Shown here: positions 3,725-6,202 of the stretch, in pieces | How positions within the stretch are numbered: the first letter of the stretch is position 1 | Layout: the number at the start of each line of letters is the position of its first letter | Origin: Rhizobium subbaraonis | GTDB lineage: Bacteria; Pseudomonadota; Alphaproteobacteria; Rhizobiales; Rhizobiaceae | DNA length: 64,000 bases | Assembly: GCF_900220975.1 (NCBI RefSeq) | Contig: NZ_OBQD01000012.1 | Location: 1-64,000, forward strand | Reading direction: 5' to 3' | Notes under the pieces: generated by a model | Database searches by the model: none | Told to the model about the DNA's origin: nothing | Seen by the model: only the letters and a program-made list of their open reading frames with translations | Made by a program: the position numbers and the translations under genes

Positions 3725-4822
3725 TCACCCCGCACGGAAATGCTTGGACAACTTCAGCCCCTGTGCCTGGTAGTTGGAGCCGAGCCCGGCGCCATAGAGG
3801 CTCTCGGGGAGTTCCAGCATGCGCTCGTAGACGAGGCGGCCGACGATCTGTGCGTGATCCAGGATGAAGGGCACTTCATGGCTGCGCACTTCCAGGACCG
3901 CCCGGCTGCCGGAGCCGCCGGCGGCCGCGTGGCCGAAGCCGGGGTCGAAGAAGCCGGCATAATGGACGCGGAATTCGCCCACCAGCGGATCGAACGGCGT
4001 CATCTCGGCGGCATAGAGCGGGGGCACGTGGACGGCCTCGCGGGAGACGAGGATATAGAACTCGTCGGGGTCGAGGATGAGTTCGTTGCGACCGCGGCTG
4101 AAGAGCGGCTCCCAGAAATCGAAGACGTCGTGCTGGTTCTTCTTGTCTACGTCGACGACGGCCGTGTGATGCTTGCCGCGATAGCCGATCAGCCCGTCGG
4201 GACCGGTTCCCTGCAGGTCGATCGACAGCGCGATCCCGCCGCCGGAGACGTTCGGCGTCTCGCTTGCCACCAGCGTGTCGCTCTTGTGCAAGGCCAGAAG
4301 CTCGGCATCGGAAAGCAGCGCGTTGCCGCGGCGGAAGCGGATCTGCGACAGGCGCGAGCCGCGTCGGACGACGATCGGGAAGGTTCGCGGCGAGATTTCC
4401 AGATACAGCGGGCCGCTGTAGCCGGCCGGGACTTTGTCGAATTCCTGGGCGCGGTCGGTAATGACGCGTGTGAAGATGTCGAGGCGGCCGGTCGAGCTCT
4501 TCGGATTGGTGGAGGCCGAAAGCTCCGCGGGCAGGTCGAGGCTTTCCATCAAGGGCACGATGTAGACGCATCCCGTCTCCAGCACGGCACCTTCGGAGAG
4601 GTCGATGACATGCAGCTTCAGACGGTCGAGCTTGTCGGAGACGAGATGCGCGGGTCCGGGCAGAAAACTTGCGCGCACGCGAAACGCTTTCGAGCCGAGC
4701 CTGAGATCGAGGCTAGCGGGCTGGATCTGATCCTGGTCGAGCTTCGCCTCGCTTGCCAGTCTCCCGCCCTCGAACAGTTCGGCGATGGCGCGGTCCGCCA
4801 GAATTCCCGTTGCGTTTGCCAT
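3725..4822 (-). CDS. dcd: 2'-deoxycytidine 5'-triphosphate deaminase (long rhizobial form)
   Basis: This 365-residue dCTP deaminase converts dCTP to dUTP for thymidylate synthesis. It is nearly twice the length of the E. coli enzyme (about 190 residues) and appears to contain two tandem Dcd/dUTPase-like units. The first has PASLDLRLGSKAF near the N-terminus and STNPKSSTGRLDIFTR in the middle. The second begins around GIALSIDLQG. The long form is usual in Rhizobiales. An open frame continues upstream of ATG 4822 across the antisense strand of metZ, but the conserved protein starts at MANATG. It is divergent from metZ. Confidence 0.9.
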   Translation of the reverse strand: MANATGILADRAIAELFEGGRLASEAKLDQDQIQPASLDLRLGSKAFRVRASFLPGPAHLVSDKLDRLKLHVIDLSEGAVLETGCVYIVPLMESLDLPAELSASTNPKSSTGRLDIFTRVITDRAQEFDKVPAGYSGPLYLEISPRTFPIVVRRGSRLSQIRFRRGNALLSDAELLALHKSDTLVASETPNVSGGGIALSIDLQGTGPDGLIGYRGKHHTAVVDVDKKNQHDVFDFWEPLFSRGRNELILDPDEFYILVSREAVHVPPLYAAEMTPFDPLVGEFRVHYAGFFDPGFGHAAAGGSGSRAVLEVRSHEVPFILDHAQIVGRLVYERMLELPESLYGAGLGSNYQAQGLKLSKHFRAG

Positions 4823-4903
4823 GACCCTATCCTTAAAACTGGCAGACAAAACCAAATGCAGGCAATTGACGCAAGCGCCTCCAGGCAGTATGGACCGGAT
4901 ATC

Positions 4904-4960
4904 CCGTGGTGATTTGGCCGGTCGGCTTGCAGCCACGTTAAATAAGTAGCTAAAAAGGCC
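4904..4960 (+). promoter_or_regulatory. SAM-II riboswitch aptamer in metZ leader
   Basis: The sequence matches the SAM-II (metA) motif. P1 pairs CGTGG (4905-4909) with CCACG (4933-4937). The loop has the conserved GATTTGGCC (4911-4919), followed by CTTGCAGCC and then the TAGCTAAAAAGG tail. The tail GGCC at 4957-4960 can pair with loop GGCC at 4916-4919 to close the H-type pseudoknot. SAM-II commonly precedes metA/metZ genes in Alphaproteobacteria and lowers expression when S-adenosylmethionine is plentiful. It lies 58 bp before metZ on the same strand. Confidence 0.92.
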
Positions 4961-4997
4961 GGGTGCAGAACCGGCCCGTATTGCGGCCGGTTTTTTT
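4957..4997 (+). terminator. Attenuator: antiterminator overlapping an intrinsic terminator
   Basis: Three complementary blocks follow one another: GGCCGG (4957-4962), CCGGCC (4971-4976) and GGCCGG (4985-4990), then seven T residues (4991-4997). Block 2 can pair with block 1 (antiterminator) or with block 3 (intrinsic terminator), but not both. Block 1 includes the GGCC that closes the SAM-II pseudoknot, so ligand binding should free block 2 for the terminator. The pairing is read directly from the sequence; the switching direction is inferred. Confidence 0.85.
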
Positions 4998-5017
4998 GTT
5001 TGGAAAGCGATGATCCC

Positions 5018-6202
5018 ATGAGCAAGTCCTGGCGCCCGGCAACCCAACTCGTCCACGGTGGCACTACCCGTTCGCAGCACGCTGAAACCTCCGAAGCGAT
5101 CTTCCTGACGCAGGGATTCGTCTACGAGAGTTCGGAAGCCGCCGAGGCACGCTTCAAGGGCGAGACGGACGGCTTTATCTACGCCCGCTACGGCAGCCCG
5201 ACAAACGACATGTTCGAACGCCGCATGTGCCTGCTGGAAGGTGCCGAGGAGGGCCGGGCGATGGCGTCGGGCATGGCCGCTGTCGCCGCCGCAATCCTCT
5301 GCCAGGTGAAGGCCGGCGACCATATCGTCGCCGCGCGCGCCCTGTTCGGCTCCTGCCGCTATATCGTCGAGACGCTGGCGCCGAAATACGGCGTGGAATG
5401 CACGCTGGTGGACGGACGGGACCTGGCGAACTGGGAAAAGGCAATCCAAAAGAATACCAAGGTCTTCTTCCTCGAAAGCCCGACCAATCCGACGCTCGAA
5501 GTGGTCGACATCGCCGGCGTCGCCAGGCTTGCCAACCAGATCGGCGCCAAGGTCGTGGTGGACAATGTCTTCGCCACGCCGATGTTCCAGAAGCCGCTGG
5601 AGCTCGGTGCGCACGTCGTCGTCTACTCCGCCACCAAACACATCGATGGCCAGGGCCGCTGCCTCGGCGGCATCGTGCTTTCGGACAAGCAGTGGATCGA
5701 GGAGAGCCTGCAGGACTACTTCCGCCACACCGGTCCGGCGATGTCTCCGTTCAACGCGTGGACGCTCCTGAAGGGCATCGAGACGTTGCCGCTGCGTGTC
5801 AGGCAGCAGACCGAGAACGCCGCGCGCGTGGCCGATTTCCTCGCCAGCCACCCCAAGGTGGAGCGCGTCATCTATCCAGGCCGCAAGGACCATCCGCAGG
5901 CCGATATCGTGGCCAAGCAGATGTCTGGCGGTTCGACCCTCGTCTGCCTCCACCTGAAGGGCGGCAAGGAAGCGGCCTTCACCTTCCAGAATTCGCTGGA
6001 GATCGTGGAAATCTCCAACAACCTCGGCGATGCAAAGAGCCTGATCACGCATCCTGGAACCACGACGCACAAGAACCTGACCGACGAGGCCCGTGCGGAA
6101 CTCGGCATCTCGCCGGGCACGATCCGCTTCTCTGCCGGCATCGAGGACGGCGACGACCTGCTGGCCGACTTCGCCCAGGCCCTCGACAAGGTGAAGGCGT
6201 AA
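5018..6202 (+). CDS. metZ: O-succinylhomoserine sulfhydrylase
   Basis: This 394-residue PLP enzyme of the Cys/Met-metabolism family converts O-succinylhomoserine and sulfide to homocysteine in direct-sulfhydrylation methionine synthesis. The PLP lysine is in SATKHIDGQGR (Lys207), and the family landmarks YARYGSPT and FLESPTNP are present. The start is ATG 5018, with GGAAA upstream; an in-frame TTG at 5000 is less likely. Expression is evidently controlled by the SAM-II riboswitch and attenuator just upstream. The next gene, apaG, is 220 bp away. Confidence 0.95.
   Translation: MSKSWRPATQLVHGGTTRSQHAETSEAIFLTQGFVYESSEAAEARFKGETDGFIYARYGSPTNDMFERRMCLLEGAEEGRAMASGMAAVAAAILCQVKAGDHIVAARALFGSCRYIVETLAPKYGVECTLVDGRDLANWEKAIQKNTKVFFLESPTNPTLEVVDIAGVARLANQIGAKVVVDNVFATPMFQKPLELGAHVVVYSATKHIDGQGRCLGGIVLSDKQWIEESLQDYFRHTGPAMSPFNAWTLLKGIETLPLRVRQQTENAARVADFLASHPKVERVIYPGRKDHPQADIVAKQMSGGSTLVCLHLKGGKEAAFTFQNSLEIVEISNNLGDAKSLITHPGTTTHKNLTDEARAELGISPGTIRFSAGIEDGDDLLADFAQALDKVKA

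Follow-up and report, generated by a model that had tools for sequence, protein, structure and literature searches.

Does the SAM-II riboswitch in front of metZ in Rhizobium subbaraonis act on translation, as the common picture of this class would have it, or on transcription? The stretch of DNA analysed here (the window) is 64,000 nucleotides (nt) of contig NZ_OBQD01000012.1, and it contains two divergently oriented genes, minus-strand dcd and plus-strand metZ, the latter starting at 5018; the metZ leader combines an aptamer for S-adenosylmethionine (SAM) with three short blocks, A, B and C, the second of which can pair with either the first or the third, never with both at once. It appears very likely that this riboswitch shuts metZ off via premature transcription termination. 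Transcriptional SAM-II switches, and the metZ switch itself, are already known, and there is no novelty of kind in this conclusion. The elements on which it depends are given below, with rows referring to the 49 distinct aligned leaders of relatives that are discussed later.

4896-4974, plus strand: SAM-II riboswitch aptamer, a covariance-model match to Rfam RF00521 (SAM_alpha)
4905-4937, plus strand: P1 stem (4905-4909 with 4933-4937), invariant and paired in 49/49 rows
4918-4923, plus strand: 5' strand of the P2 pseudoknot, CCGGUC, partner of 4957-4962
4957-4962, plus strand: block A, GGCCGG, 3' strand of P2 and 5' strand of the antiterminator
4971-4976, plus strand: block B, CCGGCC, 3' strand of the antiterminator and 5' arm of the terminator
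4985-4990, plus strand: block C, GGCCGG, 3' arm of the terminator, the terminator helix being paired in 100% of its cells over 49 rows
4991-4997, plus strand: T7 tract of the intrinsic terminator
5002-5007, plus strand: likely Shine-Dalgarno sequence, GGAAAG, identified by eye, outside the aptamer and 3' of the terminator
5018-6202, plus strand: metZ, O-succinylhomoserine sulfhydrylase of 394 amino acids (NCBIfam NF005696, 776.9 bits, cut-off 675)

The match to RF00521 is full length (1-79) and, at 84 bits (E 1.8e-17), lies above the gathering cut-off of 36, and the P1 stem, the P2 pseudoknot and a methionine/SAM gene downstream are all present, as expected of a member of this family. The first-pass annotation of this DNA, made from the letters alone, was right in placing a SAM-II aptamer before metZ and right to the base about the three blocks, the seven Ts and the ATG. 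It had taken GGCC (4957-4960) for the strand shared by pseudoknot and antiterminator: the sharing holds, but the strand is not limited to these four bases, given that P2 probably uses all six bases of block A with CCGGUC. Block A has three possible partners, namely, 4918-4923 in P2, 4971-4976 in the antiterminator and, in part, 4987-4997 via its palindromic core. The antiterminator, accordingly, shares an aptamer strand and is mutually exclusive with the terminator.

That terminator lies between the aptamer and the gene, which is the mark of a transcription-attenuating riboswitch, with the metZ ATG past it. A consensus scan of 4700-5100 on both strands recovered the hairpin of B with C that had been proposed from the letters, with a stem at 4967-4994 (10 pairs) and a T tract to 4997, and this stem is longer than B-C alone, reaching AGAACCGGCC/GGCCGGUUUU; altogether, the region holds two terminator-like sites, against a shuffle mean of 0.5 (standard deviation 0.8). 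The folding energy of the 115-nt leader is no better than that of shuffles in a minimum free energy (MFE) test (z -0.60), and folding energy alone is therefore not taken as evidence. Read on the minus strand, the antiterminator hairpin (4956-4977) is itself a terminator-like site, with 7 pairs and then TTTT, because the aptamer's GCTAAAAA adjoins block A; judging from the sequence, it could stop antisense transcription heading to dcd.

In the proposed mechanism, at low SAM, block A would be free as B leaves the polymerase, the A-B antiterminator would form, and the polymerase would read into metZ. With SAM abundant, the ligand would hold A in the P2 pseudoknot, leaving B free to pair with C, and the B-C hairpin followed by T7 would terminate transcription, yielding an RNA of about 97 nt (4901 to 4997, with the start placed by a promoter-like element). 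For this genome, we infer from the sequence that SAM is bound and that the switch operates. The evidence from this genome and its relatives consists of the aptamer, the blocks, their conservation and compensatory change; for the SAM-dependent rise of an RNA of about 100 nt and fall of metZ mRNA, we rely by analogy on the Sinorhizobium meliloti ortholog, where both have been shown.

For the comparison, the best 80 of 506 MetZ loci were taken, so that near relatives dominate the sample, and together with the window they form 81 rows, all of which (81/81) contain the aptamer and the three blocks. Helix statistics were computed on the 49 distinct leaders against 500 shuffles; two rows with a one-base shift in block A (L008 and L015) were retained and enter three of the pairs as unpaired cells. 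In the aptamer, 98.9% of the cells of P1 and P2 together are paired (4/500 shuffles as high) and 98.0% of those of P2, where one pair has changes on both sides, and column pair 21/57 keeps its pairing while varying (UA 21, UG 18, CG 8, other 2, the latter being the two shifted rows). Three measures set the antiterminator apart from all 500 shuffles: 94.8% of its cells are paired, versus 91.1 +/- 0.6; 25 cells are changed on both sides, versus 7.1 +/- 6.4; and the covariation score is 0.185, versus 0.118 +/- 0.013. Versions of the helix slid along the alignment have at most 10 cells with two-sided change. Two pairs show the substitutions, 57/78 (GC 23, AU 21, GU 3, other 2) and 55/80 (AU 32, GC 4, GU 1, other 12).

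Coupling is also seen at single positions of the blocks, counted in 70 distinct leaders; 71 were examined, the remaining one being a metA leader. Position A2 with B5 reads G-C in 31 leaders, A-T in 30 and G-T in 9, with A-C in none; B5 with C2 reads C-G in 31, T-G in 28 and T-A in 11, with C-A in none; and P5, the P2 base that faces A2, reads T-G in 30, T-A in 30 and C-G in 10, again with C-A in none. When P5 is held at T and C2 at G, the counts for A2-B5 are 21/19/9/0, and since the coupling persists with both of these constant, it is direct, rather than relayed by P2 or the terminator.

Folding with ViennaRNA, in which pseudoknot, ligand and polymerase are outside the numbers, is consistent with this order of events. 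With the window leader extended stepwise to 3' ends from 4976 to 4984, the probability of the antiterminator, P(A-B), is 0.997-0.999 (0.999 for 4976-4982) and drops as C emerges; when A is blocked, P(B-C) is 0.998-1.0. Across the 49 leaders, the mean P(A-B) is 0.95 once B is out, and with the pseudoknot strand blocked, the mean P(B-C) is 0.99 (lowest 0.88). In whole-leader ensembles, A-B is favored over B-C in 41/49 leaders when the 3' end coincides with the end of C, and the number falls to 37 with two more bases and to 23 with four; in the window, at two bases past C, P(A-B) is 0.15 and P(B-C) 0.48. In these models, terminator and antiterminator are nearly in balance when ligand is absent, and for this reason some termination should occur irrespective of SAM. 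For read-through, A-B probably has to persist until the polymerase is past the site, a partial dependence on timing that would follow from A-B forming first and B-C being close to it in stability.

Across the order Rhizobiales, RF00521 was found in 187/249 genomes, compared with 0/14 control genomes. The leaders compared at this scale come from the best matches listed (about 150, down to E 4.2e-15) plus named loci, and weak aptamers are under-represented for that reason; the aptamer pattern did not pick up one locus (L175), and the counts exclude 46 repeats. The 184 distinct leaders that resulted stand before metZ (151), before metA (8) or without an assigned gene (25). Among these matches and named loci, a terminator that begins outside A is present in 130/151 metZ leaders, representing 22/28 families, with the Rhizobiaceae of NCBI and our group f1 assumed to be one family, and in 117 of those 130, the pairing of A with the terminator 5' arm is -8 kcal/mol or stronger. 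The corresponding numbers for the 8 metA leaders are 4 and 2. Under a laxer finder, which does not require the stem to start outside A, shuffled metZ leaders have a terminator in 98/453 cases, versus 133/151 for the real ones. Own A blocks also fit B better than the A blocks of other genera do (-13.64 versus -12.86 +/- 0.25; 28/20000 permutations, with genera inside families not independent).

The leaders differ in build among families. Loci of f35, including L084 and L128, have a long A-B and the strongest antiterminators among 56 representatives scored, with 10 contiguous A-B pairs in L084 and L128, CAGGCCGGGGA against ATCCCGGCCTG. In six metZ leaders of genus g3 (L185, L188, L194, L198, L199, L200), block A is GGACCG, and a metA-like terminator lies farther downstream; A-B is weak in the four distinct leaders scored (-6.4 to -7.9), and this appears to be a differently built platform. 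In f50 (L210, L212, L213, L214, L220), a SAM-II aptamer precedes metZ with no terminator detected by the finder in 5/5 leaders, so that, judging from the sequences, these leaders perhaps represent a translational or other platform on metZ.

A number of observations weigh against attenuation through the A-B antiterminator, or at least against a sharp form of it. Two further measures show no excess over shuffles, namely, the number of antiterminator pairs with two-sided change (2 versus 1.4; 221/500) and of further pair types (5 versus 5.1; 461/500), and these are the measures least misled by relatedness, given that kinship alone can raise the others. Pair 55/80 is open in 12/49 leaders. The two-sided changes trace to about three independent events, and the minimum numbers of changes on the metZ tree of the 81 rows are few (P5 3, A2 3, B5 6, C2 8). 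On well-supported branches there are 2 independent A2 pairs, with B5 moving in the same direction in 1.7 on average and never in the opposite one, and with just 2 such pairs a sign test has no power. Covariation of the blocks in relatives, which the first-pass annotation had named as a check, thus came out in three of five measures and not in the two conservative ones. In the folding models, B-C taken as an isolated hairpin surpasses A-B in stability in 49/49 leaders (mean 3.1, range 0.8-5.7 kcal/mol), and in the window leader extended to 5020 with nothing blocked, P(B-C) is 0.93. Among the order-wide leaders, 21/151 before metZ lack a terminator by the finder, which requires a stem abutting the T run (some of them, such as L218 and L211, appear by eye to have one), and families f50, f30, f39, f44, f25 and f32 have no terminator-bearing metZ leader at all. 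In 13/130, A-B is weaker than -8 kcal/mol (f1 genus g3 4, f2 4, f12 2, f33 3). The advantage of own A blocks is modest, with a fraction of 0.079 when each family contributes one row, and the A-B fit owes much to shared GGCC/CCGG content, given that foreign A blocks still average -12.86; a first version of this test, whose terminator search was free to draw on A and overlooked helices (with a score of 0 for the window), gave 234/5000, and 0.22 with one row per family, and the second version kept the 5' arm outside A.

How does this compare with what is known of SAM-II? Two papers in Genome Biology bear on the question, the SAM-II (metA) motif paper of 2005, reportedly by Corbino et al., and the riboswitch mechanism survey of 2007, which is said to be by Barrick and Breaker. 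The former has the same aptamer with P1 and P2, reports terminators after many SAM-II aptamers and suggests an OFF switch, and antiterminator blocks are not described in the part available (PMC1273637). The latter gives transcription attenuation as the commonest SAM-II mode in proteobacteria, by class-level computation, with no individual leader worked out in the text at hand (PMC2258182). SAM_alpha lies upstream of metY in 26/30 genomes of two alphaproteobacterial lineages (PMC4239095). The closest precedent is the S. meliloti metZ switch, for which a terminated RNA of about 100 nt (RZ) was predicted and studied in 2022 (PMC9373788), and which shares with the window the gene, the aptamer class, the terminator after the aptamer and the size of the terminated RNA. 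In SAM-rich medium, the level of RZ goes up and that of metZ mRNA goes down, and the opposite is seen when metK expression is lowered; in both media, even at low SAM, RZ far exceeds metZ mRNA in abundance (PMC9373788). These data fit some termination at low SAM together with timing-dependent read-through. High SAM also entails promoter regulation and longer RNA half-lives in S. meliloti (PMC9373788), and for this reason the change in vivo is not due to termination alone; no mutation of the metZ terminator was found in the part of that paper available. The locus of S. meliloti 4H41 (L043) contains the three blocks as the window does and differs in having T at B5, so that A-B and B-C each contain a G-U pair. 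A description of covariation among the three blocks before metZ did not turn up in the open-licence literature, which was covered mostly by titles and the beginnings of abstracts, and this is weak evidence of absence.

Three other explanations have to be set against these data. One is that the terminator works largely independently of SAM and mainly yields the short RNA, with the aptamer just stabilizing RNAs. The greater stability of the isolated B-C hairpin in every leader, the large excess of RZ in both media and the longer half-lives and reduced promoter activity in SAM-rich medium in S. meliloti all speak for it; nevertheless, we regard it as unlikely, because it leaves the A-B coupling unexplained by P2 or the terminator, because A-B is still favored in 37/49 leaders two bases past C, and because lower metK expression raised metZ mRNA and reduced RZ. 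Another has the terminator compete not with A-B but with a third fold, in which A pairs with C and the U tract (4952-4962 with 4987-4997). Both the isolated segment 4950-4997 and the leader ending at 4997 favor this fold, which is the MFE structure of each (-20.8 versus -16.4 for B-C in the segment), a further point against the A-B antiterminator. We give this alternative little credence: it requires the U tract, which at the moment of decision is still inside the polymerase, it gives way to B-C once the 3' end reaches 5020, and it is A-B that has compensatory change at two pairs.

Translational control, with SAM hiding the ribosome-binding site in the pseudoknot, is the best-studied SAM-II mode and is exemplified by the crystallized metX RNA (PDB 2QWY), a direct-occlusion switch (PMC10907184); it has also been proposed for S. 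meliloti metA. The metX RNA belongs to the same aptamer class as the leader in the window but, as far as the available text goes, has its ribosome-binding site inside P2, unlike the latter, where P2 ends at 4962 and the likely Shine-Dalgarno sequence sits about 40 bases past it, behind the terminator. For metZ, this explanation seems extremely improbable, and the start codon at 5018 also argues against it.

Transcription attenuation, the interpretation at which the first-pass annotation had arrived, remains the best reading in view of the pairing kept through change, the near-complete shift to B-C when A is blocked, the Shine-Dalgarno sequence past the terminator and the S. meliloti ortholog. 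The folding it had called for, with and without an aptamer constraint, agrees with it, A-B forming first when A is unblocked. Its statement that ligand binding forces termination appears correct in direction, but the contrast may be overstated, with the folds balanced in the absence of ligand and RZ abundant at low SAM in S. meliloti.

The remaining features of the locus are the putative promoter and the divergent neighbor, together with one small RNA elsewhere in the window.

4866-4871, plus strand: putative -35 element of the metZ promoter, TTGACG, with TTGACGCAAG kept in relatives
4889-4894, plus strand: putative -10-like element, TATGGA, after a 17-base spacer, with a TA-initial hexamer kept in relatives
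within 3725-4822, minus strand: dcd, a match to NF005734
60911-61055, minus strand: alphaproteobacterial small RNA ar35 (113.9 bits)

TTGACG-N17-TATGGA was first picked by eye and afterwards compared across the 80 relatives, a strict sigma-70 scan having returned no site for the metZ promoter. In 80/80 related loci, TTGACGCAAG lies 36-37 bases 5' of TCCCGTGG, which opens P1, and the hexamer 17 bases on starts with TA (TATTGC in 28, TATTGG in 19, TATGGA in 6, others in 27). The nearest named metZ among the best matches taken is that of Rhizobium rhizolycopersici (93% DNA and 98% protein identity). The genome has one further SAM-II aptamer above the cut-off, before a gene which we take, from its sequence and position, to be metA. 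There, too (L002, 1512-1640), a hairpin and a T6 run follow, in a way that recalls the metA terminator known from S. meliloti.

More tentatively, and as a possibility that we consider well short of probable, a platform that reuses the P2 strand might be the old, general design of metZ SAM-II switches in the order, with one base tied across the P2 5' strand, A, B and C, with the folds kept near balance so that timing decides, with much short RNA made at all SAM levels, and with translational SAM-II as the derived form. The biology of the metZ switch repeats that of the published S. meliloti ortholog, and what the present analysis adds is a test of the three blocks by comparison among relatives. 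With one strand serving both the metabolite-binding pseudoknot and the antiterminator, the metZ leader makes a clean textbook example, and it offers a counterweight to the usual view of SAM-II as a switch of translation.
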